DNA of 64,000 nt from Nymphaea colorata (lineage: Eukaryota > Streptophyta > Magnoliopsida > Nymphaeales > Nymphaeaceae), in assembly GCF_008831285.2 (NCBI RefSeq), contig NC_045144.1, positions 1,240,001 through 1,304,000 on the forward strand, in the 5' to 3' direction. The notes under the pieces were generated by a model. It worked only from the letters and a program-made list of their open reading frames with translations, did not search any database and was not told the DNA's origin. Positions within the stretch are counted from its first letter, which is position 1. Each line of letters opens with the position of its first letter. This document shows, one piece after another, positions 1 to 58,568 of the stretch. The translations under genes and the position numbers were made by a program.

Positions 1-248
1 AAGAGCCAGAGCGGTTTCAATAGTTGAAAATTTTTTGAGGATCAGTCCCTGCTCACCTTCAATGTATGGCACCTGTCTTCGTGTTCATTGATGGTAGCCG
101 TTAGCTGAAGAGATTATCCATCTTCATTTTTCATTCTTCTCTAGTTGTGTATCATGACAAGAACCGGTATGCATCTTACCGGTTTATATCTACGTGTGAA
201 CCTGTGCATGTGAATCTAGATTATTTCAACAATTGGTAGCAGAGCTGG
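1..248 (+). repeat. LTR-like 3' end plus primer-binding-like site, copy 1
   Basis: The segment ends in TTTCAACA at 231 and is followed directly by ATTGGTAGCAGAGCTGG (232-248). That is one base from the usual plant initiator tRNA-Met primer site (TGGTATCAGAGC). The equivalent in copies 2 and 4 begins TGTTGGAGA and ends CAACA, as an LTR should. No gag-like ORF follows, so this would be a non-coding or heavily decayed element. An LTR of about 320 bp is an inference from ends and primer site only. Confidence 0.4.
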
Positions 249-991
249 TTAATGCCCTATATCATCTCTTCTTTGTTTGGAACCGTATGAGAGACCAGTA
301 GATATCTGTCCACCATACTGATCAACGAGGGACAACGTCTACCGGCGGTCTCTCCCACATAGGGATCTCTCTTTTTGTCCCGTTAAGCTCCTTTATTTTA
401 TTAGAGACCTCATTGAAGCAGGAAATATGGTTAAACTGATGATAAAAATATGATTCCTTATTGTCTTCTTTCTGCTCCTCTTCCTTTTAGTGATTATTAA
501 ATTGTCTCTTAATCTTTAAATACTGAAATCCCACCAGTGATTACAATTTTTTTTTTAAACATAAAAGCTATTGACCCACTTATCTCTTCTCACAGCATTT
601 ATCGCCTGTGATTCCGTTGTGTTGTTAGGTACTGGCAAGGCTTAGTCAGTAGCATTTGCTCCAGTAGCGGATTTTCATATCTGAAAGGGCATGAATATCG
701 GACTTTCATGCGTTGTTGTTTTTCTTTGTCGGTTGCTAAATACTTTTATCTGTTTAGTGATATTTGGTCCTGTCCATTGTACTTCCTAGCATTAATGACA
801 TTATTGGGTTTTGCTTCAAATTGTATTGTTTCTTGTCCTATCCTTGCCTAGTTCTAAATGTTGCTTAGATCTGATCTTTCCTCTAATTTTGCTTTTCTTG
901 TATTTGCAGTTATGACTTGTGACCTAATTTTGCTTATGGCGGGTCAAATTTGTTGTGAGAAAGAGAAGGCTCAATGAGGCAGTGCATTGTT

Positions 992-1560
992 CTGCACTTG
1001 TCTAAGACAGTCTTATTGTCAACAAATGTTTCCCCTTAATGCAGCTCCAATTAATTGTCATGGTAACCTTTTGGGAATATGATGAAGGTTCATGGTCTAT
1101 TACAAGAAGTGAGTTACTTTGTTCTTCGTAGAGAAAATCTGTTTTCTATAAATTTTATAGAATAATGTGATTTCTTTGCTAATGTCCTTTACATTAGGGT
1201 TCCTTTTTATTTGAATTATTCTTGCCCTGTGTGCTTGAGTGTTGTATGCTCATCTTGGGTGCAAGCATTTTGTTGGTGGACTGCACTTGTCTAAGACAGT
1301 CTTATTGTCAAAAAATGTTTCCCCTTAATGCAGCTCCAATTAATTGTCATGGTAACCTTTGGGGATATGATGAAGGTCTATTACAAGAAGTGGGTTACTT
1401 TGTTCTTTGAAGAGAAAATCTGTTTTCTATAAATTCTATAGAACAACATAGCTTGATTTCTTTGCTAATGTCCTTTACATTTGGTTTTCTTTTTATTGTA
1501 TTATTCTTGCCATGTGTGCTTGAGTGTTGTATGTTCATCTTGGGTGCAAGCATTTTGTGT
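992..1560 (+). repeat. 289-bp tandem duplication
   Basis: Two copies of one segment begin CTGCACTTGTCTAAGACAG at 992 and 1,281, a period of 289 bp. Copy 4 has the same duplication at 33,441 and 33,729 (period 288). Copy 2 has a single copy, starting at 13,707. The duplication therefore marks copies 1 and 4 as sisters in this part of the array. No recognised coding content. Confidence 0.85.
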
Positions 1561-2079
1561 TTTGATCTTCTTGCATCTGATTATAGTTTTCTGAATTTTC
1601 TGTGTTTTTTTACTGACCTTTAATAGTTTAATTAGGAAAAATTGTTTTTGAGAACTTTTAGTCTGTTCTACTTTGTACAGAAATTGGGAAGAATAAAAAA
1701 ATGCCAAAATTGTTCAAAAAATTCTGAACTTTGGTTTTCTAAAATCCTTAATTCTGTAGAGTAAAAAAACCCTTAGTTTTCATATCGGCTCTTTACAATA
1801 TAATGTCTTTTTAACCCAGATTTGTGAACCTGTTAGAAATAGAAAAGTCTGCCTCTGTTCTATATCCAAATACTTTTTTACTTTGGCTTTCTGTAGACAA
1901 CCTTACATTCAGAGTCTAACAATGTCCAATCCCATAGTTGTCATCATCATTTCCCTAATGATTTTACAAAAGCCACTGTGTAGGACTGGCTTATGCTGGC
2001 CTTCGTTCAAGGAAAAATAAGAACTTAACGTAAACTTCTTGCAAAACTTTCAATCAGTTGATGACCTAACATTTATGGG

Positions 2080-3430
2080 AACTTGTCACCCTTAAACCAA
2101 CCCTTTATGTAGAATGTCATACTTTTGTGAGAAAGTTGGCGAAGTTCATTCTTCTACTCAGTCTACCCATCTTGTTTTGCATCCGCCCATCTCTTTAGGG
2201 AGTAGAGTTCATCCCTCCTCGTGATATACCATTTGATGTCAAGAACATTTGTAAAAAAAAAAATTCCTGAGTAGGAGAAACTTTCAAGTTTTTGTTGTCA
2301 AGCAATGGAAGTGGCAAGTTGAAAAAATCCTGGATCTGAACAGTAAGGAAAACTCCTCTGAAGCTGACATAGTTAAGACTAGGAAATGCTATTGACTCTT
2401 GACTCTGGTGTTCAAACATTTGCAAGGATTTAACATGAATATATATTAAGAGAGAAGCCACAATGCTCTGTAAGATCTTGGCAGGTAGCAAAATGAGTGT
2501 TGAGAGATGGGCTCGGGGCTTGTGTAGTTGTTCCTCTGAGTCAATAATCAAGAGTACCGGGTAGGCATAAAGCTGATTTATGTCTATTTTGCGAAGATAA
2601 TGACTTACGAACCTTTGGCTTGTCGAAAACCCGTAAGGTGAAGTGGGTTGGACATGTGACAAAACTACACATAACCACCAAAGCAGTGGAGCTTCATAGT
2701 AGCTTTTGAGGTGGTGAGGTATTCCCTCAAAGGTGAAGGTCGGCCTGAAAAGAAAATCAAAGAAAAAAAAATGGCAAAAAGCTCGATGCAAAAGAAAGAA
2801 AAACAAAAAAACTAAGAAAACAAAAACAAAAGGTGTTTGCCTAGAGATGAAAGACATGAAGGCTGAACTCACAGGAATTGAATGTAGTAATCTTTTGTGG
2901 ATGTGCGAATTTGGGGTTAATATCTGTTCCTTTTTTTATTACCTAAGATGTCGAGGATGATTCCTTTATGTTCATGTTTTGGAAATTGAAAGATATCCCT
3001 TCTAGAGGTTCGATGACATTGATGCGAAATGAATCCTAATCCTTGTATGGTACTATGGATAACTGAATGACATATTACTTGCACAACACGAGCACTCAAG
3101 CTTATGAGTTAAAGTGATAATTTTGAACTATTTCAAAGTAAAAACTTGACACCTTTTGTTATATTTCGAGGTTTTCTAGGCATAGGAGGAACTAACCAAT
3201 CTCGTTTGGTCTTGAAAGGTATTTGCCATTTCATTAACAAACTACTAGTCCATTCATGGAATAGATGGAACTCTTCAAACCTAGTCCACTTATGCTCAAT
3301 GTGACAATTTGTCCATCTTTTCCTTTGTCTTAGGAGAGGCACATTATTTGGGAACCTGACCCATAAGTCCATCTTAACTGAGTGTCTTCAACCCGTTGAA
3401 ATGTCATCAACCTGTTTTTCAATGACATAA
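2080..3430. repeat. Dispersed repeat family R, copy 1 (unclassified)
   Basis: About 1.35 kb is repeated at 14,260-15,590, 34,530-35,910 and, more diverged, at 25,435-26,830 and 53,220-54,610; partial copies lie in the 16.7-18.7 kb tandem units. The minus strand carries the longest open stretches (2,195-2,872, 3,133-3,372), but they are broken differently in each copy and show no domain I know. An A-rich tract lies at 2,745-2,832. No terminal inverted repeats or target duplications were found. Young and old copies side by side suggest a transposable element or an old segmental repeat; I cannot choose. This copy and copy 4 share a deletion of about 110 bp at 2,257-2,265. Confidence 0.6.
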
Positions 3431-3784
3431 CCCAGACTTAGGGTTGAGGTTATCATGGAAGATCTCTTATCTGTTTTCAAAAGAACTGGACATTTTTGAA
3501 AAGTTATATCTTTTGAAGTTTGAAGTTGCATGAGTGTTGTTCTTGGCTTCATCTAATATTTGTCTTGGCTTGCAATACATTGTTTTGCAAAATGGGGTGG
3601 AGTTATTCTTCATCGTCACCAACTACCCTCTCATGCCTTTGCTTCGACAGCTGGGTCCTTCATAGTTTTGGACCAGGTTAGTGTTTCAGTTTCTTCTAGT
3701 GTCATGTTAGTTGAGTGTTAAGGATATTTTGACTAGTATGTGTTTGTTTATCCATAAATTAGGACAGTATCCTGCATTGGGGAA

Positions 3785-5110
3785 AAATTATGATATTATT
3801 GAATCTTTTCTCATTGATGCTATTTATGTTGTCACTCATTTAAGGCTGGTTATTTGACCTACTCACTCATTTAAGGCTGGCTATTTGACCTACTCCCCGT
3901 CGATTGCTTTTAATCCGGTTTTTCCCCTTCCCATAATCGAGATGTTTTTCTTACATTGGAGGAGAAGGTGAGCTGAGAATGGTCCAAAATTATGTCAGAA
4001 TGTAAGTTTTTTAGGCGTGAAAATAACAACTAATGTTTATTTTAGAATGTCGTGGAAAGCTTGTTTTCGGATGCGAGCCTAAATCTGTCTCGGCCGACGA
4101 TGGCTGGGGGAGTGGCTGAGGCCAGGCCAAAGGCTCGCAACCAAGGTGTAAGCCTAGGCAAGGCCGGCCGAAAGTTGGCTGCCGAGCAAGAGATGTCAAG
4201 GCCGAAGGAAGACGCGGCCCATCGTGCGGCCGTGGAAGGGCGCCAACCGAAGAAAAGAAGCGTCGATGTGGCCTACAAGGCCTAAGAAGGGTCGAGCATG
4301 TAGAGCTCACGTCGAAATGATGATGTTGGGCGTGAGCAGCCTCCCAAGGCTCGAAGAGACAGGACGCAACGATAGAAGAATTCAGGCTTAAGGAGGTTAA
4401 CATAGTACTTGGAGGTGCTACAGTGGGCACCAAGTACGGGCAGAGCAGAGACAGACTTGAAGATGGGCACGGCATAGAGAAAGGGACCTAGATCTGGTAG
4501 AGGTAAAGTCAAATCTAGTGTCGAGTCCTAACCCAAGTCAAACGGGGAAGTCTAGGCCCGAACCTAGACAAGTTACCTCTCGGGCTCACAAGGCCCGAGT
4601 CAAACTCGAACTCTGAGATCTCGTCTCATTTGCTTTAGTTTATTTACTTTTGTTGAGTCATTTTGTTTCAAGTATAAGTGTCTCGGTTCATTCCTAGAAC
4701 CGGTTCTTTGTGAGCTATATAAGCTCGTTTGTAAGTTGTTTTTATTAGGGAATGGAATATTGAATAGAAAGAAGAAAGTTTCGTTCGTTGTCTCTGTTCC
4801 CCTTGTGGGAGTTTCTCTCTTCCCCTCATCGGCCTTGCCGGCGGTGATTGGAATCTCAAAGGCTACAACCCGTGGCTCTAGCTGAGGCATATGGAAGATA
4901 TGACTCAGGGTCTTTGTCATGAACATGTGTGTGTGTCTCTCTCTCTCTCATACCCAAGTAGAAAGACACGTTCACGTGCACCCAAGTACCGAAAAATATG
5001 TATTTGTTGATGTGGAGCTTGTGCTTGAATTCTTATGGCATTTCTAAAATATCACAATGCAGGTGGAATATGGCTGATTGGTGTATTAGTGCAGCCTAGA
5101 AGGCTAAAAC
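3785..5110 (+). repeat. LTR-like GC-rich insertion, shared by copies 1 and 4
   Basis: Copies 2 and 3 read straight from GCATTGGGGAAA to AACTGTGGC (about 15,975 and 29,810), whereas copies 1 and 4 carry about 1.3 kb between those points. The inner part (4,048-4,965) is GC-rich, with repeated GGCCGA/GGCC motifs, then a promoter-like TATATAA at 4,716-4,722, a CT tract at 4,934-4,949 and no durable ORF. This looks like a solo LTR. A clean TG...CA border and target duplication could not be fixed; TAGAA at 4,043 and again at 4,961 is one candidate pair. Deletion in copies 2 and 3 is the alternative to insertion in copies 1 and 4. Confidence 0.5.
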
Positions 5111-5252
5111 TGTGGCTGATTGGTTTTTATTTTCAGAGCTAACATGTCAATTCATACAGTTAAAAGCATGCTTTCTTTTTGTGCTCGTAGCTAAATCTTA
5201 GTTATGAGATCAAATTGCAGGACTTGCCTTTGGTTGCTCAATTTTATTGCAG

Positions 5253-5399
5253 GTGGGACATTTGCATTGTACTCACGGATATGCAAGCATGTAAAGCTCT
5301 GTCATCTTCCAAACCAATTGTCATATGATGCTTGGATCAAGTTCAACTGAAGGTGGCACCTCCACAGCTTGGGTTGTCAATAACGATTAAAGAAAGGAA
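5253..5399 (+). pseudogene. KUP/HAK potassium transporter exon fragment, copy 1
   Basis: A 147-bp exon-like block lies between acceptor TTGCAG (5,247-5,252) and donor GTATGT (5,400). It reads GGTFALYSRICKHVKLC, matching the GGTFALYSL..C segment conserved in plant KUP/HAK/KT K+ transporters. After a one-base frameshift near 5,345 the other frame matches the family's LKVPSPELE..L.IKER segment that follows. Transporters of this family have about 750-800 residues and 10-14 membrane helices; I find only this exon. The same frameshift is in every complete copy in the window, so the fragment was already dead when the array multiplied. Confidence 0.8.
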
Positions 5400-6300
5400 G
5401 TATGTAAGCTTCCTTGTCACTGAAAAAGGATGTTCTCGTGTTTCTTCTTGTTGGTAACATTAGTGTCCACTGTCTTTTGATGTCATTCATTGTTGAATTT
5501 CTCCCAACTAGTTTTCATATAGGTTTTTAATGTCATTATATTACTATGTTTTAATTTCACTTTGTTTTTGACTTTTTTTTTTATGGAACAGGCGATTGCT
5601 TTAGAGATTACCACAATTATGATGTGCCTATAAATTATTTTTTCCTCCAAAATATTTCACACATTTGATGTAGAAGGTTTGCAGTCATATGGGTTCAAGC
5701 TGGACTTTAGGCAAGTTCTTGTATGAAAACCTGTATTATAACATTCTTTTTTTCCTTGTACAAGTGAAAATCTAATTATGAAGGAAAAGGAAGAAATTGA
5801 AGAAACATGACAAAGTGACTTAAAGTAGAAGAGACCATATGGAATGCACTAATAGAAGCAAATTCTTGTTCTTTCCTACAAAAGATATGTGCCTCATAGA
5901 GGGAGTTACTTATGCAAGTTTTTTGTCCATGCAGTTGATTGCCATTTCTCTTTTCTTAGCTGCAAAGTCTTTGCAGAAGGGACTCATCTCCTGAATGAAC
6001 ACTATCCTGTAGGCTGCTTTTGAAAATTGCCATAAGCATAACTTTCAATTTTCCTCCTATTTTCTTTCTGCTGTAAGCATCTGTCGCTTTGGCCCTGTTG
6101 AATTTGATTGGTATAGTCATCATGACCAGTGACCACTTTAACGATGCTGCAACAAGACGCCAGATATTATGAGCTGTTTGGCCTTCTTCATCTTGATCAA
6201 AAGCGAAACAGATTATGAATCACAGGTGTGGATCAAATTGCTGGCAAACTGATTATCTATCACTTTTTTGTTATTTTCTCAAGTCTTTTAAAATTTTTCT
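5400..6300 (+). other. 3' part of repeat copy 1, no gene
   Basis: Repeat-unit sequence shared with 16,300-16,670, 19,315-19,860, 30,123-31,010 and 37,874-38,430. It has intron-like T-rich tracts and several AG acceptor-like sites but no open frame I can assign. Near 5,985 copies 1 and 3 continue with one sequence (CTGAA..., type I end) and copies 2 and 4 with another (GCAGTTATTGCATCC, type II end). Confidence 0.6.
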
Positions 6301-6863
6301 TATTTTATATACTAAGATTCGTCTATTCGACAGTGATTTCATTGTTAAAAGAATCACATACCTTGATCATGGCTTGAATGTTCGCTACCCTGATTCGTAT
6401 GAGACAAAACTTTGCTCATCACCTCAAAACTTCAGCTTCTCTGGAAGACTCCTTACTAGTGGTTTCCGGCTCTTTGGTGCCAACCTTACCTTCTTCAGGT
6501 GCAATTCTGCTAATGATTGGCTTCTGCAACCTCCGTCCTCATGGAAGAGAAAAGACTGTGCTGATGGCTCTTTGCTGTATTATTATTACAGTCCACAGGA
6601 ACAGATAAAGCTGCCTCTTGATGTCCATCGCATCAATTGTCCTATGTATGAAATCCCTGCTGGTGTTGAGGAGTCCGAGTCTGCAAACCTTTCTGCCATA
6701 TTGAGTGGTGGATTTTTTCTTCGCTGGGGGTTTGATTGCCTCAAGTGTACTACCAGTGGGGGCCAGTGTGTATTTGGAGAAGATGACGCCCCTGCTTGTT
6801 ACTGCGAAGATGGATCAGTGCACCATACAAATTGCTCTGATGGATCATCTTCAAAATCAGCTG
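6300..6863 (+). pseudogene. LRK10L/WAK-type receptor kinase, extracellular domain fragment
   Basis: The open frame here (6,215-6,883) encodes the distal part of a cysteine-rich GUB_WAK_bind domain (residues about 35-145, with NFSFSG and NLTFFRC), then a WAK_assoc domain (about 158-205) with the hallmark pattern LSGGFFLRW, C175..C178, SGG at 181-183, and C195/C197 ahead of EDG. This is the ligand-facing region of LRK10-like kinases, anchored in the plasma membrane and thought to sense the wall or pathogens. The signal peptide and first half of GUB_WAK_bind are absent upstream, and the break coincides with the end of repeat homology near 6,300. A weak donor (GTAGCG) follows at 6,864. Together with the kinase exon this is one broken gene. 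Confidence 0.85.
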
Positions 6864-9315
6864 GTAGCGTGATATACTCCTGACTCTCGAGTTCTGTTAC
6901 TATCATAGCTTCCATCTTGTTCACACAAATTACACCAGTGGGGCGCAATATAATTTTGCTTTCTGTTTGGAAGGATAACTGTACTCACTGATTATTGGGT
7001 GGTTCTGACCATTTGTAGGTGCATTCGCATAGATTAGCATTGTCATGTGTAAGTGCTTTCAGGGTCATCCAAGCCTGTCCTAGAAAGCTGTTTTCCCAGC
7101 CCCGAGAAAGTCTAAAAAAAATTTGACTTCGTTCAAAATTACTGGACGTGTGTGTGTGGAGAGAAGGGTGGGGGGGTGGGCGAGAGAGAGAGAGTACCAG
7201 GTGTTCACTTGTGCATGATATCTTCTCCTGGCACTTGTCCTCCATGGTGCTGTCCAGTATACTTGTTGATTTACTTAGAGCTACTTTGTAGAGAAAATTT
7301 AAAACTGCTTTTTGGACCCGCTTGGTTTGAGGTTTCTCAATGTTTCACATGTTGACGACAAATCCAGCAAGATGTTGTTGAGACCATCTTTACCTTCATG
7401 AACCATCACCCTTGAGTTTTGCATCTCGACAAATCTTGGGGTATTCGGTGTACAATGCCTGGTAAAAGGATCATTTTTTTTCCTTCGTAAACCAGATTCA
7501 ATGCTTTTTTTCCTTTGTAAACTTTTTTAGTACGTGTTAGCATTCTACAGCTAAGCCTTCCAGATTTTTAGGAGCATAAAGAAGGGGATCAGTCATTTCT
7601 ACGCTGCAAACCTTGATTGTTTCTTTAATATGCAAAGTTTTCTAACATATAGGTGGGACCTGGGCCCTCTGGCCACCATTTGGCTACCGTCCCTTCCCCC
7701 CAAATTCAGGACCTACGGTTACAAATTCTCTTGATTCCCCCAACTCTCCATCTTCAAATGCAATAGTGAAAGGAGCCAGGAAAGCGGGAAATTTTTGTGG
7801 TGAAGATTTCTCATATTGTCTTTTAGTCCCACCATTTGGCTACTGTCCTTTCTCATTCGATTGTTGAAGTTGGAACTATGGACATGGATTTGGATCCAGT
7901 GTTATTATTTTTCTATTCAAATTCATGTCGAAGTCCAAATTACAACCGACTTTAGTAAACATATAGATGCCAGTTAACTTGAAAAATCACAATTCAAGCT
8001 GCTCAGTTCCTATGCTTTATTTTGTCTGAAATTCTGGTCCTCCAGTTTGCAAATTCCCGTCGTTCATAGGCCATTTAAACCTATAAAGAAAATGAAATTG
8101 ATTTAAAACATCTAAATCCGAATGTAGAACACTGACAAGCAATTAAGATCTGTATTTGGATTTAACAATTTTTTTTTTCTAGATCTGAAATACGTTGTAG
8201 CACAAGTTCATGAAAAAATTAGTAGCATGCCTCCGGTTGGATTCTGACCCAGATGAAAGCGGGATCTGATGCAAAATATTCACCAGGATCTGATAGCAAT
8301 CTGAATTTATAAATCATGGTTAGCCTGCAAAACTTGATTGTTCCTGTAGTAGCAATCATTCACCAATAACGTGACCGTACTTTAAATATTTGTGCATTTT
8401 ACAAATGGGATTGCAAGCAGATGCTTTCCTCAGCTCCTATTTCCTGACAGTTTGTTGCTTATCTAGCTAGATAATGAATTGTGCAATGTGATGTTCTTGT
8501 AAGTAGACAGCTGCAGCATTGATCTCTTTCTCAGTGATGCTTGGTTTAGAAAGCTAGAGATGGTAATTGCTCTGATTGTTATACTTTTAATAGTGTTGTC
8601 TGGTTCATAATGCATGTGAAATCAAGAGAAGATAGAGAAATATTCTTTTACCAATCCTTGAGAGAAATATGTTTTTACTGATATTTGAAAACTGAATTAG
8701 GGTCAAAATCATTGTGTAAGGAGCGTTATTGTGGATTTAATTCGGTAGGAGATCACTATTCTTTTGCCCTTCAACTGTACATCCCAACGCTCCTCTTAAT
8801 TCTGGCATTCACTTAGTAATACTGCTTTTTTGACATTTAATGAAAGCCGGCCTCTATACCTAATCCTCGTAAATTGGTTGTCAAGTTGGCTATCCATTGA
8901 ATACTTTTAACATATCTTTACTTTTATATGCAGGAAGCTCGAGAAATATCAAAACCATACAACGTCATGCAGATGCAACAGATCAACGATATCACACAAG
9001 TCTTGGTGTTTAAAGGACCGTACCGAGTCTCCCTAACTTTGCCCGTGATCGTTGGTTAGCAAATTAACCATGCTGTGTTCGCCGATTTGGCACTTATCCC
9101 AGTGAAAAATTTGGTTTTCAGGCATCGTTGTACAAAGGGCAGCCCTAAATGATCGATTAGAACAAAGACATTTCAACAGTGATGAACTTCAACACGTCAC
9201 TTTTGCATCTTAGCCTAGAGTTGATATCTTAGAATGATGATTTGTACATTTCATCCAGGAAAAGTTTAACTACCCTCAAGTGCTGCACCAAGAGTGTAAT
9301 ATTCAGTTTCATTTC
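6864..9315 (+). other. Probable intron region of the LRK10L-like pseudogene
   Basis: No coding segment can be supported in these 2.4 kb. The stretch separates the WAK_assoc exon from the transmembrane/kinase exon, as in LRK10L genes, which have an intron here, but it is longer than I would expect. A GA-rich tract lies at 7,183-7,194. Around 8,935-9,060 an AG-bounded segment could be a small exon, but I cannot match it to anything. Confidence 0.5.
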
Positions 9316-10394
9316 AGCAGGTTGTCTAGCAGCAGTCGGCAGCCTTCTGACAGCATGTTTATTGTTTTCATTACTCGATCCCTTCGGATTTCTTGTTCAA
9401 GGTCTCCTACAGAAAATGGATGCTTGCCATTCCGTACACCAACAAAAGTTGAGAAGTCTCACAACCACTAGGTACACATACAACGACATAATCAGAATGA
9501 TAAGTAAGTTCAAATGTCAACTTGGGCAGGGTGGCTTTGGGAATGTCTATAAAGGATGGTTGACCAATGGCACACCGGTGGCTGTAAAGCTTATGGAAAA
9601 ATCATATAATGATGGGGAAGAATTTTGTATTGAAGTTGCCACCATCGGTATGATTCACCATGTCAATGTGGTTCACCTTCTTGGCTTTTGCGTCGAAGGG
9701 TCTCGAAGAGCACTTGTTTACGACTTCATGGAAAATGGTTCTCATGAGAAGTTTACTGACACCACAGTTGCAGGCCGTTGCTTGTTGAGGGAAAGGCTAT
9801 ACGATATAGCACTAGACACTTCCAGGGGAATTGAGTATCTACACCAAGGCTGTGACCGAAGAATCATCCACTTTGACATCAAGCCACATAACATTCTTCT
9901 AAACAGTGACTTTACACCAAAGATTTCTGATTTTTGGCTAGCAAAATCATTTTGTAAGGAGAGAAACAGTGTAACTATTACAGAAGGCAAAGGCACAATC
10001 GGTTATATTGCTCCCGAATTAGTTTATGGGAATTCCAAGCATGTCTCACATAAAACTGATGTTTGATAGCTTTGGAATGCTACTGATGGCGGTGATTGGG
10101 ATGAAAGAAAAGTTTGGTCCCACTGATCGGGCTTCTAGTGAAGGGTATTTTCCTCAATGGATTCATGCTACTCTTTCTAAGAATCAGAAATTGGAAGGCA
10201 TTGGAGAAGGTCAAGATGAAATTGTAAGAAAGATAGCCACTATTGCCTTGTGGTGCATACAATGGAATCCAATTGATACACCTTGTATGAAAGAAGTTGT
10301 CAGGATGTTGGAAAACAGTGCCTCAAGCTTGACAATGCCTCCTAATCATTTTTACCATGTAGTTGAACCAGAGATTCAGGTTTTTGACTCCTAG
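9316..10394 (+). pseudogene. LRK10L-type receptor kinase: membrane helix and kinase domain, frameshifted
   Basis: A likely acceptor (TTTCATTTCAG, ending 9,317) opens the exon. In the frame starting at 9,242, residues 24-45 form a hydrophobic membrane helix and 94-105 the glycine loop LGQGGFGNVYKG. Lys116 lies in VAVK, the helix-C Glu in EVATIG (131), the catalytic loop is HFDIKPHNILL (210-220; HFD is normal for this non-RD family), and APE is at 258-260. Two lesions stand out. The Mg-binding DFG is DFW (codon TGG at 9,935-9,937), and an extra base near 10,065 ends the frame after KTDV. The C-lobe resumes in another frame (10,071-10,394: SFGMLL, ALWCIQWNP, VVRMLE). The family phosphorylates Ser/Thr; this copy should be inactive. 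Confidence 0.9.

Positions 10395-12843: not shown

Positions 12844-12845
<2 letters not shown>

Positions 12846-12879
<34 letters not shown>
12846..12879. repeat. (TA)n microsatellite
   Basis: A pure TA run of about 17 units. Copy 3 has a shorter interrupted run at 29,050-29,070 and copy 4 one at 33,044-33,070. Copy 1 lacks the tract at the equivalent place (about 690), where a deletion joins the flanks. Confidence 0.9.
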
Positions 12880-47158: not shown

Positions 47159-47401
47159 GCTCTGATACCATGTTACGTGATGAAGAAGGGAAGTACCAGA
47201 GTGGGAGAGAGAGAGAGAGAGAGGCGAGAAAACTTCTCATTAATCTCGTGCTCTAATCTCAACTTAAAGGGAGATTAGGGCACGGCTGAGACAGTTACAA
47301 GAGAAGGACAAATAAAATATTAAAAGGACAAAAAGGAACCCTAACTCTTAAATAATCAAATAACTACCACATTTAAAAACAAACTTTCTAATTTCAACAG
47401 T

Positions 47402-49384
47402 TACAACCCTAAAACTGGGCGTGTTCATATTTCACGGCATGTTGTTTTTGATGAAAACAGGTTACAAGATCCCAAGGCTACTTGCATGACACTCAAGGAT
47501 AAAAATGAGGTTTATGATACTTGGCTGCATGCTGAAATCCTAAGACAAGGGGCTGATCGTTTGATTGAGCACGAGGAGCAAGATGTTAATGAGCCTGAGA
47601 CACTTGTGAGCGATTCCTTGGATAGCATGCCCTCATCCTCACAACCCCATGATTCACCTATACATAGTTGGTTCTCAGGCCTTGTGTACTCTAGGCGATC
47701 AGCTCCTAATGCAGCCCCACGTCAGTCCCAACGTGTGCGACATCCCATTGATCGGTGGGTAAGTTATAACAACTTTTCTTTAGATTTTCAGTTGTTTATG
47801 ACAGAAGTCAACAAGAAGGTCGAACCAAAATCCTATCACCATGCAAGTAAGGAAAAATGTTGGGTTGAAGCTATGAATGAGAAAATGGCAGCATTGCATG
47901 AGTGTCAGACTTGGCAGATTGTCCCTCGTCCAACTGATAAGAATGTTGTGGGCTCCAAATGGGTCTACAAACTGAAATATAAGCCAGATGGTAGCATTGA
48001 TCAACATAAAGCACGTCTTGTGGCCCGCGGTTTCACACAACAATATGGGGAAGATTATGATGAAACATTCAGTCAGGTTATCAAGATGGGCACAATACGT
48101 GTGATTATTTCTCTTGCAGTCTCATATGGGTGGCCTCTTTATCAGTTAGATGTCAAAAATGCTTTTCTACATGGGATTCTTAAGGAAGAGGTATACATGG
48201 AGCAACCTCCCGGCTACAATACTCATGATCCTCAAAAATGGGTTTGTAAGTTACACAAGTCTTTATATGGGCTAAAGCAAGCTTCTAGATCATGGTTCGA
48301 TCGGTTTTCTCATCATATACAACAAGCTGGTTTTCTACGAAGCTCTCTAGATCATTCCTTGTTTATGTATCATACTGAAGAAGCTACCACTTGGTTACTT
48401 ATCTATGTAGATGATATTGTTATAACTGGGAATTCTTCTTCTCATATATCTTATGTTAAGGATCTGTTGCAGCAAGAATTCAAGATGAAAGATCTCGGCG
48501 AACTTCGGTACTTCTTGGGTGTTGAACTTGATAGAGCAAATGATCGATTGACTCTTACGCAGCATAAGTATACTCTTGATATTTTGGACAGGGCAGGTAT
48601 GATTAATTGCAAACCCATAACTACTCCTAGTGTTCTAAACACTAAATTGGCTGCCTCTGATGGAACTCCTGCCTATTCAAATCCTACCTTCTATCGCAGC
48701 ATTGTTGGTATGTTACAATACCTTACCTTTACGCGCCCAGACATAGTCTATGCTATAAATCAGATCTCTCAATTTATGCATGCACCCACAGAAGGACATA
48801 TGGATGCTACTAAGCGAATCTTACGGTATCTCAAAGCTACTCTTGAGGATGGATTGATCTATACAAAGTGTCCCAATGTTTCTCTTGGACATAGCATATA
48901 TACTTATATTGATGCAGACTGGGCAGGAGATCCTGATGACCGACGCTCAGTTTCAGGTTTCTGCCTTTTTCTTGATTCTAATCTCATTTGTTGGAGCAGT
49001 AAAAAGCAGCGTGCCGTTGCACGATCTAGCACTGAGGCAGAGTATAGAGCAATGGCTGCAGGGACAGCTGAGGCATCATGGTTACGACATTTGCTTGGAG
49101 AGCTTCATCTACCTATTGTTCAGTCCTCATTGCTATGCGACAATCAAAGCGCCATCAAAATTGCCTTCAACCCCATTTTGCATAATCGTACCAAGCACAT
49201 TGAGATTGATCAACACTTCATTCGTCAGAAGGTTGAAGAAGCTGAGATCTTGCCTACTTATATATCCACCAGTGAACAAATAGCGGATCTTTTTACCAAA
49301 GGTCTTACAGGGCAGCATTTTTGGGATTTGAAAAACAAGTTGTGCATGATCAAATCTCATGCACAACTTGAGGGGGGCTGTTAA
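47402..49384 (+). CDS. Reverse transcriptase-RNase H of the large Copia
   Basis: The frame is open from the insertion border through 49,384, with the first ATG at 47,486 (632 residues from there). It has the RT entry motif WELV/WQIV region, YQLDVKNAFLHG, the catalytic YVDD at residues 307-310 (nt 48,404-48,415), the RNase H Asp in DADWAGDP (residue 476) and the STEAEYRAM and HIEIDQHFIR motifs. Length and motifs look intact, but it is the C-terminal part of a polyprotein whose upstream half is separated by 4.9 kb, so it is not expected to be made normally. The stop lies just inside the 3' LTR. Confidence 0.93.
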   Translation, partial: YNPKTGRVHISRHVVFDENRLQDPKATCMTLKDKNEVYDTWLHAEILRQGADRLIEHEEQDVNEPETLVSDSLDSMPSSSQPHDSPIHSWFSGLVYSRRSAPNAAPRQSQRVRHPIDRWVSYNNFSLDFQLFMTEVNKKVEPKSYHHASKEKCWVEAMNEKMAALHECQTWQIVPRPTDKNVVGSKWVYKLKYKPDGSIDQHKARLVARGFTQQYGEDYDETFSQVIKMGTIRVIISLAVSYGWPLYQLDVKNAFLHGILKEEVYMEQPPGYNTHDPQKWVCKLHKSLYGLKQASRSWFDRFSHHIQQAGFLRSSLDHSLFMYHTEEATTWLLIYVDDIVITGNSSSHISYVKDLLQQEFKMKDLGELRYFLGVELDRANDRLTLTQHKYTLDILDRAGMINCKPITTPSVLNTKLAASDGTPAYSNPTFYRSIVGMLQYLTFTRPDIVYAINQISQFMHAPTEGHMDATKRILRYLKATLEDGLIYTKCPNVSLGHSIYTYIDADWAGDPDDRRSVSGFCLFLDSNLICWSSKKQRAVARSSTEAEYRAMAAGTAEASWLRHLLGELHLPIVQSSLLCDNQSAIKIAFNPILHNRTKHIEIDQHFIRQKVEEAEILPTYISTSEQIADLFTKGLTGQHFWDLKNKLCMIKSHAQLEGGC

Positions 49385-49685
49385 GTCTGTACGTATAAGT
49401 GTAAGGGGATCGGGTCTAGATCGGGTCTGTTCAGACCCGATCCACTTCGTTTTTATGTCTTCACGTCTAAGTGGTGGCACCTCTTGTAATTACTTCATGT
49501 TTTATTCCTCTTTTTGTTGTAACCTAATTAGGTTTATGTTTTAATAATAGAGATCAAGCATCGTGTGGCTGCATTGGCCGCCGGTTCTCTTACCTTCATT
49601 GCCTTCTTCTATTCTCTATTCTCCATCCTCCTTATTTTCAGACGGAGAGACGTGATTCGGTGATGTTTTAGTGAAGATTCTAACA
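49379..49685 (+). repeat. 3' LTR of the large Copia
   Basis: 307 bp, TGTTAAGTC to TTCTAACA, about 98.7% identical to the 5' LTR by my count. A perfect 11-bp-arm hairpin (GATCGGGTCTG, loop TT, CAGACCCGATC) lies at 49,419-49,442. Confidence 0.97.
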
Positions 49686-50187
49686 ACATGTTTGTGGAAG
49701 AATCGAAATGAATCGGTATTCAGTTTGCACAATTTGATACATTTGGCCATTTGCCAAGATCAGACAAAAATGAGTGCACAATCCAATAGCACAGCACACA
49801 CTAGTCATCTCAAGGATATAGCAAAGGCAAGGGCTGAAGGTTGGTAGTAGTGATTGGACCACATTAACTCTTACATAAGTAAACATTTGAAATTAGAGTC
49901 ACACTTGAATTGGTTGCAAGGGCGGGTTTCATCTTGTTTTACATGTTATTTCTCATCCCATGCCATTTGAATGGAATGCTGAAGAATATAAAGAACCTGT
50001 TAACTTTTGGTGCCTTGCTGTGGATTTTGCTTTTTTACTTTTAGCATTGGAGAAGTAAACACATTGGTGTTCCCATTTGAATTTGAAGTGACTTTTATCT
50101 TGAAAATCATTGGTTTTTAGGGCATTTATTTTCTGTTTTCATGTTTAGCTTCATTGCCAATGTTTTGAATTGAATGGTTAATTGCAG

Positions 50188-50639
50188 TCATAATGTATAC
50201 AACAAGGAGGAAAATTTAGGAAGACAAGGGCGCTGATCCTTCTATGTTTAAGGAGATAGTTGCACGGGTTAAGAATTTGAGCTGTGTAGCTACTTTAAAG
50301 CATAAGTTGAAGTATTCTATTCACCAACAGTAAACATTTCTCACCTTGCTGGCTTTTTCTGACCTTGAGAACACCAACCAGGAACTGAAAAGTGATATGA
50401 AGGATCTGTTCATCAACTCAGTTGTGTAAGGACTTCATGTTTGTTTTATATGCTTGATGAAAGTCTTTTTACAAAAGGGATTTAATGTCGCTTTAGTGTC
50501 TATGTTCTCGGTAGCACTCTTACGCTAATTGATGTTTTTTTTTTCTCATTTTGGGCATTAAAGCCAAATTGACATCTATGGGAACCTGAAGGCAGTGGTG
50601 ATCCATGTTCCTTACAAATTGCGGAAGGCTTTTCTGTAA
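50188..50639 (+). pseudogene. RPS7: Ribosomal protein eS7 (RPS7) gene fragment, copy 4
   Basis: Same three blocks as at 21,613-22,064: ATG at 50,193, block 2 at 50,345-50,425 with donor GTAAGG, block 3 from 50,564 to the stop at 50,637-50,639. Differences from copy 2 include E to K in block 1 (TTTAAGGAG) and P to L in block 3 (AACCTGAAG). The same stop after RKAFL truncates it. It lies 500 bp downstream of the large Copia. Confidence 0.85.
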
Positions 50640-51638
50640 CATGGATTACACAAGAGGAATCAAATGTACAAGTATTATGGACTATATGATGCTTCAAATG
50701 GTTCTATATGATGTCAATGACATGATTTTTTTTTTTGTTTAGGTCCTAGAACTGTTTTTTCAAACGTTTTCTTTTATTATCCAACATCAAAGGGGTGGAA
50801 CACCCCGTATCTCTAGCCTAACCAGTAACCAATCTCCACTGTGGATCAATCTTCTTCTTGTCTACCCTCCACTGCATTCTCATTCTCCTTTTTAACTTTT
50901 CTCATTCAGCCTCCTCCCCCTTGGCTAGTTTGTGCTTATCTTAATAGCAAAAATGAGCGTCCAAGGGTGGAGGTATTCTCAATCATCACCAACTATCCAG
51001 CCATGTCTTCAATAACTAGGTCCTTCATGATTTTTGACCAAGTTAGTATTCAATTTCTTCTTGTGTCTTGTTACTTGAATGGATGTCTGAGGTATTGTAA
51101 ACATCCAACATAGGTTAAAGTCATTGGTTTGATTAGTTTTCAGTATGAGCATATTCAGTTAGATTTATTTTAATTTTGTTGAGTTGGGCAAATGTTGGTT
51201 TGATTTTATAGTAGTTCAATCTTCTCTTTTATATTCTGCTTTAGTGGTTTTCCAGCATAACGCTCATTGTGTTTAGTTCTCACTTTCATTGTGTCATGGG
51301 TTGTTTAGGAGCTTTGTTGATTTAGTTGTTGGGTTTTCATTTTTCAATGACTTTGCCGGATTCTTTGATAAATGAAATCTTATCAAGTCTAGTCATGAAT
51401 ATGTGTGTACGTGTGCTATTTCAATGTCTTTCTACCTGCAGTTAATTTTTTTTTTATGTATTAGAGTTCTTATTTCAGCCAAGGCCCCCCTTGGATTCTT
51501 AAAAGCTTCAATACTTGTGTAACAATGGTTTATGCCCCCTCCATCCTTCCTCACCTCAAAAATAATTTCTGGCTCCTCCCATGTGCCTATTCATGCATTC
51601 AAGTTGATGTTGGGGCTGATAGTTCAAATCCAATAGTG

Positions 51639-52451
51639 AAATTCTAAAAAATATGTAATGTATATACATATATAATATGTTGTACTATATATTATTGTGT
51701 ATATGTTATGTATTGTAATATGTAATGCGTATGTATACTCATAATATTAACATATGTATATTAATATTATATTAATTTGTTAACATATATAATATTATAT
51801 TAAAATATGTATCCATATACACATTATATATCTATACAATATACATGCACATATAATATGTATAACATATATGTATACATATAACGTTATATGTATATAT
51901 CTTATGCCTACATAGTATAACATATACATATATATGGTAGAAATTCTGGAAAATATGTAACTTATATACATATATAATATGTTGTACTATATATTATTGT
52001 GTATATGTTATGTACTGTAATATGTAATGCATATGTATACTCATAATATTAACATATGTATATTAATATTATATTAATTTGTTAACATATATAATATTAT
52101 ATTAAAATATATATCCTTATACACATTATATATCCATACAATATACATGCACAAATAATATGTATAACATATATGTATACATATAACGTTATATGTATAT
52201 ATCTTATGTCTACATAGTATAACATATACATATATATGGTATAATGTAGAATGCACGTTATAGACTATACATACGTATATTTATGTTATATGTTATAGGT
52301 GTATAATGTTATATATAATGTGTGTGTGTGTGTATATATATATAGATATATTTATTATTTAAATAGTACATACATGAATACATCTACATATTAAAACATA
52401 TATAGCATATGTACACATGCATATGTAAATTGTGTATATTATGCATAATGA

Positions 52452-52548
<97 letters not shown>

Positions 52549-52550
52549 CT
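51639..52550. repeat. AT-rich dimer (~300 bp unit) and (TA)n, copy 4
   Basis: Unit starts at 51,639 and 51,941, then AT-rich DNA and a TA run of about 40 units ending near 52,548. This is the MITE-free state of 23,064-24,785. Confidence 0.85.
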
Positions 52551-52594
52551 GTGTGTGTGTGTGTGTGTGTGTGCATGTGTGTGTGTGTGTGTGT
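52550..52594. repeat. (TG)n microsatellite, copy 4
   Basis: TG run with one GCATG interruption, partner of 24,786-24,836. AT-rich sequence continues to about 52,830. Confidence 0.9.
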
Positions 52595-55043
52595 TTAACG
52601 TATATATGTATACATATTCTGTATAGTAGACATATATATGGCACTTATATATGTACATATAATATGCATACGTATAATATATTTTACATTACACATATAT
52701 GTATATGTATACATATACGTACGTATAAGTAACAACTAACATGTACATACGTATACATATGTATTCATAAAATATGTGTGTACGTGTAGATAACATAACA
52801 AATAATACGTATACGCATATGTATATATAAAATTTCTAGTTATACATATACCAAGGTATCACAATAGGTCTCTCGGAAGAGCGAAACATGTAATTGTCAA
52901 AGCATGTTTGGCATCTAATTCTGTTCTCATTGCTTGATATCGTTGACTGTTTTTCATTTGTTCTCATTAATATTTGATCAACGGAATTCTTTGTCAAAAT
53001 TATATATCATTTATGGGAGCACGTTTTTGTTCAATGGAAAGCCTTAGTTAGAGCATCAAATGTACTTGGGATCAGATTCAACTTTGATAGATTGGTTATC
53101 AGATTTTGTTTAGGTTCAGGCATTTTTATTTAAATCACTGTCCGTTTGGATCTGAAAAGTGTATGTTTTTTTATCACTCCTTATCTGATCCAGCATGTTA
53201 CCTGTCAACTTTTGTCACTGCCCGTAAGAGAATTGATGAAGTTCATTTTCTTACCTAGTCAATCCATTTGGTTTTGCAAGCACCCTTTTCTTTAGAGAGA
53301 GACTAGTTTCTACCTCCACTGAGATATTTCATTTGATGTCAAGATCATTTCTAAAAAAAGAACTTTTCCATCTTGCTTAAAAACATTTTAAAAGCGTTTT
53401 TTCACACAATGATATGCCTTCATTTTATTTTTAGTACCTCCTAGAGTACTAGGAGAAAATTTCAAACTTTTGTCGTCAATCAATGGAAGAGGAAAACTCG
53501 AAAAATCTTGAGTATGAACAATGAGGAAAAAATCCTATGAAGCTAAGAAAGTCAAGAATAGGAGATGCTATTGACTCTGCTAATTAAACATCTGCAAGGA
53601 TTTTGTAAGAAAATACTCTAAGAGAGAAGCCACAATGCTCTGTAAAACCTTGACAGGTAGCAAAATGAGAGTTGAGAGATGGGCTCGGGGCTTGTGTAGT
53701 TGTTCCTCTAGGTCGGTAATCGAGAGTACCCGGTAGGCATATAGGTGATTTATGTCTATGCCGTGAAGATTACGACCTATGAACTTTTGGATCGTTGAAA
53801 GCCCGTAAGGTGAAGCGGGTTGGATACGTGACAAAACTACATATAACCACCAAAGTGGTGGAGTTTCGTAGTAGCCTTTGGGGTGGTGAGGTATTCCCTC
53901 AAAGGTGAAGGTCGGCCTGAAAAATGAAATCAAAAGGCAAAAAGCCAAATGCAAAAGAAGGAACGAAACAAAGAAAAAAAAACAAAAAAAACAAAAGGTA
54001 TCTGTCAAGGAATGAAAGGCATGATGGCTGAACTTGTAGAAATTGGATGCGACAGTCTTTTGCAGATGTGTAATTTTGGAGTCAATTCTAATCCTCTTTT
54101 TGATTTCTTGAGATGTTGAGGACCATTCTTCCTTTATGTTCATATTTTAGAAATTGAGAGAGATTCCTTCTAGAGATTCAACAACAATTATGTGAAATGG
54201 ATCTTGATGCTTGTATAGTACTGTGAGTAAATGAAAGACATATTATTTGCACAACACGAGCACTCTAGCTTATGAGTTGATGGATGATTTATGAACTATT
54301 TCAAACTAAAAGCTTGACATCTCTTGTTATATTTCTTGGTTTTCTGAGTGTAGGAGAAACTAACCCAATCCCTCTTTGGTCTTGTAATATATTGCCCCTT
54401 TCATTACCAAGCTACTAGTACATTAATTGAATACACAAAACCTCTCATATACCCAAGTTGAGTGTCATGCCCCATCATCTCCTCTATCTTAAGAGAGACA
54501 TGCCTTTCAGGATAGAAGATTAAACCAGAACCGTGATTCCATCTTAATTGTCTTAGTTGTTTGGCTTTCATTTCATAGCCTTCACTTGTGTTGTGGACCA
54601 ACTATCCCTCAGCACCCCATTGGCCAAATAGACTTGAAAAAGTCTGCCCGTGACAACTTGATTCTTTTGATAAGTATAATCTGATCAAATTCATGGGTGT
54701 GTTGGTTGTGTCACATATTCTTTTCTGCAAATAGTTGAGCAATTAGTAGGATTGACAATTCAACACATTGTGTCAGCATTGTCAGCATCTTGGACTCCAA
54801 GCAAATAGTTGAACAATCAGTGGGAAGCTCCTCATTTTTAGTTTCTGTCTGAACAGTTTCTGTCTGAATGTCTTCCTGAGCACGACTTGGGTCATCCAGG
54901 GAAGAAGAAGGATTGGGATTAGGAGTAAAATTAGAAGTAAAATTATCACCATCAGTCACCTTATCCAGGGAACATCCTTCATTCCTTTCATGTTCAAGCA
55001 CCTCAACAACCGGTGGACTCTCTTCTCGCTTGTATTTCCTGGC

Positions 55044-56107
55044 TCAGATAATACTCTTCCCCTGACATTGACTTCTCCCCCTAAAGAGAATTCTCACCAA
55101 AATAAGAGACATGTTCCAAAAATGTGACATCCGTGGTAACGTGTAAACACGACCAGTGGCAGGATCTAGACATTTATACCCCTTTTGAGTAGGAGGATAC
55201 CCAACAAATATTTCCTTGATTGACCTTAGATCAAGTTTTTTGACTATAGGGCTGTGATCATGAATGAAGCAAACACATCCAAAGACACGAGAGGGAAGAT
55301 GAAATGGTTGACGATTACCTGGAAGCATAGAGTGGAGGGTCCGCCCATTTAACACACGACTAGGCATGCGGTTAATCAAGTATGCATGAGTAAGAACAAC
55401 ATCTCCCTAGTAATGTTTTGGAACATTCTTTGAAACAAGAGGACTCTGGTGACATTAAGCAACTGACGATTTTTCCTCTCAGCGAGCCCATTTTGAGGAG
55501 GGGTACAACTACAAGATGTCTAATGAACAATCGCCAGTTTTCAAAGGAAATCCTCAACAGCTTGACAAACATAAATCTTAACAGAACCACCATATTGGTT
55601 CTCCACAAGAAGAATGAAGGTCTCTATGATATGCAGCACTTCGCTACGATCTTTCAACAGGTAAACAAAGGTATTCCTTAAGTAATCATCTATAAAGGTT
55701 ATAAAATACTGAAAACCACAACGGGTATGAATTCCAGAAGGCCCCCACACATCGGAATGAATCAAAGAAAAATTTTCATTAGCACGATTGTTTGAAACAG
55801 GGTAAGAAGCCCTAACATGTTTAGCAAATTGACATACATCACAAGATATCATAGATATGATCAAATTAGAACATAATTCAGGAAATAACTGTTTCAAAAC
55901 TCCAAAACGGAGATGTCCAAGGTGTTCATGCCAATACAAAAATAACTGAAGACAATCTTCTCTCTTCTTTTCGGTCCTGCTAACAGCTATCATAAGAGCA
56001 TTGGCCACACAGATGGGAAGTCGATATAAGCCTTCAGACACCAAACCAATCCCAATCCTCTCCCCTGTCACCAAGTCCTGTAAAACACAATGATTTGCAG
56101 AGTTCAC
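55044..56107 (-). pseudogene. Integrase region of the truncated Copia, copy 4
   Basis: Frame 56,107-55,541 has LFLYWHEHLGHLRFGVLKQL with CDVCQFAKH (zinc region) and IHSDVWGPSG (core start), then ITFIDDYLRN. A frameshift near 55,550 moves it to 55,379-55,044 with INRMPSRVLNG, VFGCVCFIHDHSP and FVGYPPTQKGYKC. The intermediate segment with the catalytic Glu lies in a third frame. Confidence 0.88.
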
Positions 56108-57385
56108 AATTCAACTCCTTTGTAATCTTGCTGACAGATAAAAGATTCAAGGGAAGATGAAGAACTTGTAAGGAACTATGCACTAAAAAATTGTTTAACA
56201 AAGAAAGACTCCCTTTTCCTACCACGGAAGTAAAGGAACATCAGCAAGAGAAACATGTTCCTTTCCAGAAGATAGCTTATACTCATGAAAGAGCTTAGGA
56301 TTGTCAGTGATGTGATGGGTGGCACCACTGTCAACAATCCATTCTCCCATACAAGAATTATTTTTCACCAGAAATGGTCAGTGCATGATTAACCTTCACA
56401 TCATCTCACACTTCGGTTTGACCAACATCGATCTGACTATTCTTCTTTTCACAAATCTGTTCAGCTGAGATAGAGGCTTTTCCTCCACTAGAGTTGGTAG
56501 CATCAGAAACAGATTTCTTCCCACTAGAAGGTCTCCCTCGATTATTCTTCTTTTCAAGATGGAGGTCCCAACAAAAATCCACTGTATGACCAGTCTTCTT
56601 GCAGTGAGTGCACTTGCAGGGAGGTCGAGCAGCTCCTACAGGACCACAGCTAACAAGGGCAGACCTCTCACTATACGAGATGGGATCCCCCTTTTTTCCA
56701 CAAGGCGTCTCTACTCTTTAGCCTCAACATGGGCGTAAACATCTTCAATACTAGGCAGTTCGTCAGGATTAAGGATTTGACTCCTTATACCTTCAAAGTC
56801 ATCATTCAATTCTGCTAAAAATAGGAACACCCTATTCTCCCATTCTTTGGCAAAATGACGCACTTGATCTTGGGGACAAACCCAATGTGTCATCAGAATA
56901 GTAGTCAAGTTCCTCCACTTAGATTTCAAAGCTGCATAGAAATCTGCTACAGAGTGTTCACCTTGCCGTAGAGAATAAACAGCCTTCATCAACAGATACA
57001 CCATAACAATTTTCTTCTTTTGACCTTCTTTTGACCATACATCTGCTCAAGTATAAACCCACATATCCCTCGCAGTCCTCTTGCGAAAAATAAGAGGCTG
57101 AATCTCGGGGGACACAGAGTTGACAAGCCAAGTATTGACTTGGTTGTCCTCAAGAAACCATGCGTCCCAAGCAACATTTGTCTCAGCTGGTTCAATCTTC
57201 CTCCCATTAATATAAACAATTCGGCCATGACCTGCGATCCCCATGGTGATAGCAGCAAACCATTGAAGGTAGTTTTCTTTGGTCAGACGAATAGTAGTAA
57301 CTTGAACTGGAATATGTTCATTTCTAGAGGCACCAACATCAGTATGGTCCACATTGACAGTATAAGAAAAAGAAGAATCTACCAT
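56108..57385 (-). pseudogene. Gag-protease of the truncated Copia, copy 4
   Basis: ATG at 57,385 opens a 112-codon frame with LTKENYLQWFAAITMGIAGH and AWDAWFLEDNQVNTWLVNSV, shifted near 57,060. Gag continues at 57,004-56,711 (SLRQGEHSVADFYAALKSKW, FLAELNDDFEGIRSQI). A zinc knuckle CTHCKKTGHTVDFCW lies near 56,600 and the protease motif WIVDSGATHHIT near 56,330. Multiple shifts and stops make it non-coding now. Confidence 0.88.
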
Positions 57386-58350
57386 GAACGGGTTTCAGCA
57401 TTGTAGCAAGAAACCAGGAGGCGGCAGCAGCAGAGGGACAGTAAAGCGGCAGTGGAGCTGAGAGCAGCGGTTGAGCAAGGAGTAGCAGCAGAAGTAGGGA
57501 GCAGCTGCAGCATGGCACAGGAAATGACAGGAAAAAGCAGGGAGATGACAACCGCTGCATGGGCCTCGAGCGATAGCCGAGGCTCAGGCGTCACACTGTT
57601 CGAATGTTGGAAGCTCGAGCAGCGAACGACAGACAGAGTCCAGGCGACAACTTCTCAACCATTGAATGAAGGAGTGCAAAATCACGACGACCCTTGGGGA
57701 CACACACAACAGCAGACTCCGTCAGGCAAAGAAGACAGAAACCATGAATAGCGACGGCGGATCTGGGCAGATGTCGCTGGAACTCACGACAGAGTAAAGA
57801 CAGCGTCAGGTGAGATGGAGAGCGTCGGGCAATAGAGGAGAAGGCTGGGCGATGCAAAGGGCGACGGAGCAAAAGGTCGAGCGACGTTGAGGGCGATAGA
57901 GCAGGAGTTGGGCGACGCTGAGGGCGATGGAGCAGAGGCTAGACGACGACGGCAAAGTCTGGCGTCGGGCTGGACAACAACGGCAAGGGCAAGGTCGGGC
58001 GTCAAGCTGGACGGCGACGGCAAGACAAGATTCGGTGTCGGGCCGGACAACGACGGCAGGGCAAAGTCAGGCATCGGGAGATGTTGAGGATGACAGATGA
58101 GCGACCGGGAGCGTCGGGCGGGCAGCAGACGCTCGAGTCAGAGGCAAGCGATGACGACCCACGGACGCTGGAACTTGAACAACAACATGGAGCAAGGAGC
58201 AATAACTGGTGGGTAGAACCTCCACCAGAACTCCACAGCGACAGACGATCACCACTCAAACGGTGATGAGGAATCCTCTGTCCAAACAGAACAGTGACAA
58301 CATGATCTCTTCCCCAACACAAGCACAAACGAAAACTCAGAACCAACTCG
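57386..58350 (-). other. GC-rich leader with a degenerate minisatellite
   Basis: About 960 bp between primer site and gag, strikingly GC-rich next to its AT-rich surroundings. In 57,890-58,080 imperfect repeats of about 40-50 bp recur, each with a GTCGGGC(T/C)GGACAACNACGGCA-like core, split here as GTCGGGCTGGAC and AACGGCA blocks. ORFs on both strands across it are low-complexity and not credible proteins. Confidence 0.65.
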
Positions 58351-58362
58351 GCTCTGATACCA

Positions 58363-58568
58363 TGTAGAAACAGGGAAACCAAGAGAGCAAAGAACAACAC
58401 AGATGTAACGTGGAAAACCCTCAACAAGAGGGAAAAAACCACGGGTGAGGAGGACAACACACTGAAAAATAGGGTTTATCCAGGTTAAATAGGGCCTTAA
58501 CAGTAACACACTGGATTGGGTCTAGACCCAGACCCGGATAGGTGACCCAAATACGACATATGTCAACA
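58363..58568 (-). repeat. 5' LTR of the truncated Copia
   Basis: 206 bp with TG...CA ends, next to a perfect primer-site complement. It contains TGGGTCTAGACCCA, a perfect 14-bp palindrome, at about 58,516-58,529. Confidence 0.8.

Follow-up and report, generated by a model that had tools for sequence, protein, structure and literature searches.

A 64,000-nucleotide stretch of the Nymphaea colorata genome (C7:1240001-1304000, contig NC_045144.1; hereafter the window) contains repeated copies of a unit built from gene fragments and retroelement sequence. We consider it about 80% probable that these copies were shaped by ectopic homologous recombination between arrays of segmentally duplicated, decayed gene fragments. 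The window would be part of a segmental-duplication family that carries decayed gene fragments (a KUP/HAK5-like exon, a receptor kinase and eS7) together with retroelement debris, and whose superunit, ordered X-type I, Up, Y, type II, is built from two old, alternating module classes, X and Y. Copies would swap DNA among arrays along C7, beyond any single array, and we infer unequal crossing-over or gene conversion as the route. An original prediction, made from the window alone, had described a four-copy array whose 5' parts pair copies 1 and 4 against 2 and 3, and whose 3' ends pair copies 1 and 3 against 2 and 4. Comparison with copies elsewhere in the genome (408 Mb, 783 contigs) indicates that most of this apparent conflict derives from the two old copy classes, and that the real conflict is confined to copies 1 and 2.

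The blocks of the unit are named Up, A, A2, B, C, insert, D and E1 (the type I end) or II1-II2-IIC-IIz (the type II end). Copies 0-4 are abbreviated c0-c4, and the C-D repeats of copy 2 are, in order, c2a, c2b and c2c. The features of the window, in which LTR stands for long terminal repeat, are:

1-6314, plus strand: copy 1, followed by the receptor kinase remnant
1-5118, plus strand: 5' part of copy 1, with A, B including the 289-bp tandem duplication, C and the 1.3-kb insert; class Y, short-insert form
3790-5075, plus strand: insert of Y copies in copy 1, with its counterpart in copy 4 at 36231-37521
4889-5122: recombination interval of copy 1, from the insert deletion junction to the 28-bp D deletion, with a four-gamete pattern
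5119-6314, plus strand: block D and type I end E1 of copy 1, both Y, with a KUP/HAK5-like exon remnant at 5195-5347
6197-10391, plus strand: receptor kinase remnant with WAK_assoc and kinase domains
11421-12144, plus strand: spacer Up preceding copy 2
12145-28464: copy 2 as a whole, with C-D threefold
12145-19036, plus strand: X part of copy 2, with C-D repeats at 15110-16668, 16669-18188 and 18190-19678, the third being X only until the switch
19037-19191: class switch of copy 2 (X to Y-type II), inside its third repeat and located by sites and trees
19192-28464, plus strand: Y part of copy 2, with D and the type II continuation and an old C relative at 25467-26790
21618-22058, plus strand: eS7 gene fragment of copy 2, with stops and gaps
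28467-31018, plus strand: copy 3, X with an X-class type I end, beginning within block A and with most of B and C deleted
31603-32349, plus strand: spacer Up preceding copy 4
32350-39683, plus strand: copy 4, Y, with the insert, D and the start of type II
39683-49685: nested LTR element splitting copy 4
49686-56171, plus strand: remaining type II continuation of copy 4

The supposed array of four is only a portion of a larger family. Immediately before the window comes an X-type I copy, c0 (C7:1234492-1238669), with type II remnants ahead of it. The copies read, in the window and elsewhere, sort into classes X and Y, which are ~10% apart (10-13% in block A), with within-class divergence mostly 2-5% plus one identical pair. 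X copies have A2, lack the insert and carry the B segment singly. Y copies have a short or long insert and, wherever A-B is readable (c1, c4 and T178Y), the 289-bp duplication and no A2. The segment A2 was found in 7 further X copies read (in c0 partly) and is absent from T178Y, the only other Y copy read there. Two other C7 loci repeat the superunit order X-type I, Up, Y-type II: one at 156-190 kb, where A is missing and C has a long insertion, and one at 598-605 kb, which has suffered deletions. The order Y-type I-LRK-Up-X, in which LRK is the receptor kinase remnant, is present at C7:928-941 kb and partly at 216-223 kb. In the block-order map, block matches were excluded if <80 bp or overlapped by a better match.

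Most of the predicted 5' characters hold in this frame. Self-comparison, excluding matches of <150 bp in one run and <100 bp in the other, places the 289-bp tandem duplication in copies 1 (992-1273/1281-1558) and 4 (33441-33721/33729-34007) and in neither copy 2 nor copy 3. The "R deletion" of the prediction was a term left undefined there; the segment kept in copies 2 (12872-13270) and 3 (29076-29474) and missing from 1 and 4 is A2. The 1.3-kb LTR-like insertion does belong to copies 1 and 4 only, but it is no clean insertion: a longer-repeat portion (~3942-4889) is followed by a deletion at ~4889 that joins it to the sequence before D. A clean solo LTR was considered and rejected, given that some copies have the right part but not the remainder and that the deletion joins the two. 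Copies 1 and 4 occupy Y slots and copies 2 and 3 X slots. Because an X-type I copy and then Up precede both c1 and c4, the 5' pairing of 1 with 4 and 2 with 3 reflects slot identity.

Informative sites within the window agree on that pairing: c1c4|c2c3 is supported at 50/50 sites in block A, at 10/10 in B (97 columns, short since copy 3 is deleted there) and at 14/14 in C (167 columns, copy 3 deleted), or 7/7 when the third repeat of copy 2 is used. For D the count is 34/36 with the first repeat of copy 2, and the third repeat leaves 5 sites, split 3 and 2. An analysis confined to the window was set aside: its quartets reproduce the earlier conflict yet mislead, and the copies outside reveal the classes. 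At 25 diagnostic sites in D, c1 and c4 are Y at 25/25 and c3 is X at 25/25.

The predicted pairing of copies 1 and 3 at the 3' end stands to the extent that both have E1; it fails as kinship and as one side of a tree conflict, given that the two ends fall in the Y and X classes, 92.0% alike. The E1 of copy 1 is Y at 12/12 sites and closest to C7:141 kb (99.0%), and that of copy 3 is X at 13/13 and closest to C7:929 kb and its 216-kb twin (98.7%). The two copies share this end, which is probably old. The type II continuation with an eS7 fragment was correctly assigned to copies 2 (19872-28464) and 4 (38443-39678 and 49691-56171). Their II1 blocks are 98.2% alike, and copies at C7:108 kb, 178 kb and 24.7 Mb are comparably close (97.2-99.0%).

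What remains of the conflict can be mapped to short intervals, 4889-5122 in copy 1 and 19037-19191 in copy 2. In copy 1, two indels ~230 bp apart, the insert junction and the 28-bp deletion in D, occur in all four combinations among 9 aligned Y copies, an alignment from which T118 (X before D) and C11_033 (begins inside D) were left out. The short insert is combined with the deletion in c1 only, and with undeleted D in c4, T178 (C7:178 kb) and C7_24.7. The long insert is combined with the deletion in T141Y (C7:141 kb) and V940Y (C7:940 kb), and with undeleted D in T108 (C7:108 kb), S457Y (C7:457 kb) and C11_111. Since the C11_111, C7:108-kb and C7:457-kb copies have neither change, the doubly derived copy 1 is likely a recombinant, with a short-insert Y 5' part joined to a Y-type I-LRK 3' part.

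Copy 2 changes class outright within its third repeat, which reads as a real exchange from X to Y-type II. Block C of c2c has 40 X, 0 Y and 1 other state at 41 diagnostic sites; block D has 0 X, 24 Y and 1 other at 25. The X-like motif stops at 19036 and the next Y-like sites are 19098 and 19102. These two are shared by c2a and c2b, which then revert to X, and the safe switch interval therefore extends to 19191, directly ahead of the position where c2c first joins c4 against c2a and c3; taking both as Y narrows it to 19037-19097. Trees agree: in C, placing c2c with Y is rejected by the approximately unbiased (AU) test (p-AU 0.0004), and in D c2c falls inside the Y clade with support 100/100 (forced outside, p-AU 0.034). 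Near C7:118.5 kb the same change of class, X to Y-type II, occurs a second time at another breakpoint. The copies are thus mosaics with class switches at defined points, the pattern of an array shaped by ectopic exchange.

Relatives of the window are widespread. A genome search with D-E1 (query 5119-6314; 40 of 57 candidates scored, and one copy may yield more than one match row) returned at least 47 rows, on C7, C11, C1, C14, C12, C5 and small contigs. Besides the query, these comprise at least 4 at 93-96% (3 near whole length, 1 from position 159), at least 6 at 94-95% ending near position 867-874 and at least 12 whole-length rows at 84-85%; the other 24 are partial or more distant. Up and A together (query 11421-12850; 40 of 107 candidates scored) gave at least 46 rows, 37 of them on C7, C11, C12, C1 and small contigs and 9 on C9, C10 and C3. 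Segmental duplications are defined as blocks of 1-200 kb with >90% identity at different loci, and matches found here exceed 1 kb and 90%: those to C7:924-964 kb extend over 6.4 kb (97.1%), 6.1 kb (96.7%) and 4.6 kb (97.7%), and D-E1 on C11 is 94% identical over 1.2 kb. Among matches of >300 bp to the V, S216, T and S598 loci, window 4887-15985 and C7:941566-929976 align collinearly, apart from gaps, at 96.4-98.8%; c0 and the sequence before it are also collinear with C7:952-964 kb.

The nearest relatives, counting block matches that cover at least 60% of a block, are often distant. That of c4 is at C7:24.7 Mb, 23 Mb away (D 99.1%, II1 99.0%, insert end 100%), and in the D tree the two are sisters at 100/97. 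In D, c3 is closest to C7:929 kb (98.9%), c0 to C7:953 kb (98.8%) and c1 to C7:141 kb (98.9%). Best matches inside the array are c2a-c3 in A (98.8%), c1-c4 in A and Bb, where for A only these two were read as Y, and, among the copies read, c2c-c4 in II2, IIC and IIz, with the 24.7-Mb copy read no further than the start of II2. Exchange or duplication is thus required both locally and over distance.

Put together, the first X-Y superunit would consist of c0, the 5' part of copy 1 and the 3' part of copy 2, its D block being interrupted by ~14 kb of D-E1-LRK-Up-X, and copies 3 and 4 would form the second superunit. Several points weigh against this reading or soften it. Crossing-over and conversion are indistinguishable here. 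The C7:216-kb locus (S216) is 99.8% identical to C7:925-936 kb over 10 kb, so that the two are not independent. Class assignment is imperfect: c1 and c4 carry the X state at 4-8 sites per block in B and C; c2a has 1 Y among 19 sites in C1, in a painting that left out the type II relatives of C, c2c and T108Y/T118Y; and in D the first 2 of the 25 sites are Y in both c2a and c2b, which calls for an extra exchange or old shared states. The Y class has one reference beyond c1 and c4 in B and C (T178Y), and none from outside the array in block A. The p-AU of 0.034 for D is modest. Most C11, C1 and C12 copies are known as match rows only, the family having been read in part, and some rows at 76-82% identity may fit neither X nor Y.

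The alternative that survives best is that one event placed the 14-kb D-E1-LRK-Up-X block into the D of an ordinary Y-type II unit, as would break repair that copies another array, or integration of an excised circle through one crossover. As a special case of ectopic exchange between arrays it shares part of that reading's credit, and we consider it possible, if on the unlikely side. The junctions at 4889-5122 and 19037-19191 fall in the same short stretch of the unit, the block is bordered by D repeats, c4 is an uninterrupted counterpart and a collinear outside source exists at C7:930-942 kb. Yet the upstream c0 region is collinear with the same outside locus, so that the left half may be old array of that type, and two separate exchanges would suffice. 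At that locus Up, A, B and C gave no match ahead of the Y copy, which leaves both courses compatible with the sequence.

A narrower version of exchange had been predicted, with unequal crossing-over or gene conversion recurring within a single array of four copies. Its first half, recombination among copies, stands, with exchange junctions in copies 1 and 2; its confinement to one array does not, given that other C7 loci, and in part C11, show the same classes and combinations. Local likeness does speak for it: c2a and c3 reach their highest identity in A (98.8%), the D blocks of c2a and c2b are 99.7% alike, and, of the copies read, c2c and c4 are mutual best matches in II2, IIC and IIz. However, D and II1 of c4, D of c3, D and E1 of c1 and D of c0 are all nearest to copies elsewhere on C7, and the Y-type I-LRK-Up-X order is present outside the array, which leaves this version improbable.

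Slightly less credible again is an assembly artefact in which copies were collapsed or wrongly joined. The 99.8% inverted C7 pair (216-226 versus 926-936 kb) does mark a region that is hard to assemble or very recently duplicated, but within-class copies are mostly 2-5% apart with private indels, and the 5-bp target duplication, private insertions and a block order recurring at several loci argue for a genuine structure. That no recombination occurred, the copy 1 indels arising twice and the copy 2 switch being chance, is very improbable: the 28-bp deletion leaves a motif also present just upstream and could recur, but its break is the same in c1, T141Y and V940Y, the insert junction is the same in c1, c4, T178 and C7_24.7, and Y sites number 24/25 versus 0/41 on either side of the switch.

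Within exchange between arrays, a doubtful further proposal is that exchange in this family takes place preferentially at the 5' edge of block D. Up to four junctions lie within ~430 bp of the unit (copy 1, c2c, C7:118.5 kb and the Y-like tract of c2a/c2b), but the c2 junctions may share one origin and this boundary was inspected more closely than others. If true, a local feature of D would repeatedly generate fusions between classes, and the family would record, as a natural counter, how often ectopic exchange happens in a plant genome.

Mosaic copies with real recombination junctions are ordinary for such arrays, and mosaic clusters with exchange have already been described in plants. Segmental duplications, surveyed in grapevine under the definition used above (PMC3179966), are likewise high-identity blocks at different loci that carry genes and repeats; in contrast to that survey, we describe one family with two alternating classes, mapped exchange intervals and decayed-looking content. 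The common bean Co-2 cluster, attributed to subtelomeric recombination and segmental duplication (PMC6102362), shares clustered duplications, LTR-element remnants and exchange among loci, but it consists of resistance gene sequences, whereas other gene debris is found here in a family only partly near a chromosome end. Gene conversion and birth-and-death in the coffee SH3 cluster (PMC3113787) again involve sequence exchange among tandem paralogs, which there are resistance genes under selection. Bringing in copies from elsewhere can thus remove most of an apparent tree conflict within a single window, and the residue here is small recombination intervals.

The gene parts look incomplete, and nothing in the sequence indicates a function. 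All 7 of 7 PDB matches of the exon remnant in D are HAK5 structures (potassium transporter 5; best E 0.005); no Pfam K_trans/KUP match was obtained in X-masked forward frames, and the genome's 76 K_trans match rows all lie outside the window. The KUP assignment also leans on the family motif. Against an Arabidopsis eS7 sequence, the fragments match residues 1-73 (copy 2) and 26-73 (copy 4), with none beyond 73, and their Pfam matches in X-masked forward frames are weak and below the curated cut-off. The receptor kinase remnant, presumably LRK10-like from the look of its open reading frames (ORFs), matches WAK_assoc (E 1.6e-08) and Pkinase (E 3.1e-34); the kinase is matched to profile position 180 of 263 and then continues in another frame without a match, the frame seeming broken near 10063. 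Read without splice models, KUP/HAK, receptor kinase and eS7 show no intact reading frames. A 6PF2K match (E 0.024) was set aside as chance, as were two other weak Pfam matches. Rfam gave nothing at gathering score, and Pfam scans of the plus-strand frames of 1-6302 and 18190-27251 and of chosen ORFs gave no transposase, the minus strand not having been wholly scanned nor element ends searched.

The nested LTR element in copy 4 has repeats 98.4% alike over 307 bp and a 5-bp target duplication, ACATG. We take it to be copia-type from the look of its ORFs. Judged by ORFs, its plus-strand pieces are interrupted by a minus-strand element at ~42518-46207, and a further minus-strand stretch at 62091-64000 is 77% like that element over 1.5 kb.

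Older relatives of C, ~80% alike, lie inside both type II ends (25467-26790 and 53224-54556) and represent an earlier duplication round of the unit. The junctions of the threefold C-D repeat in copy 2 are T-rich, which suggests slippage or short-homology duplication. Elsewhere on C7, 216001-226000 and 925715-935730 form an inverted pair, 99.8% alike over 10 kb, which is a very recent duplication or an assembly duplicate. At C7:135.8 kb, D is also the site of an inversion junction: an X copy is cut off within it and is followed by a Y stretch, LRK-E1-D, in inverted orientation. Where the type II end of copy 2 is AT-rich, a 308-bp direct repeat (23650-23957 and 24371-24678, 721 bp apart) has 1 mismatch in 300 by one count and 100% identity by another, a very recent local duplication.

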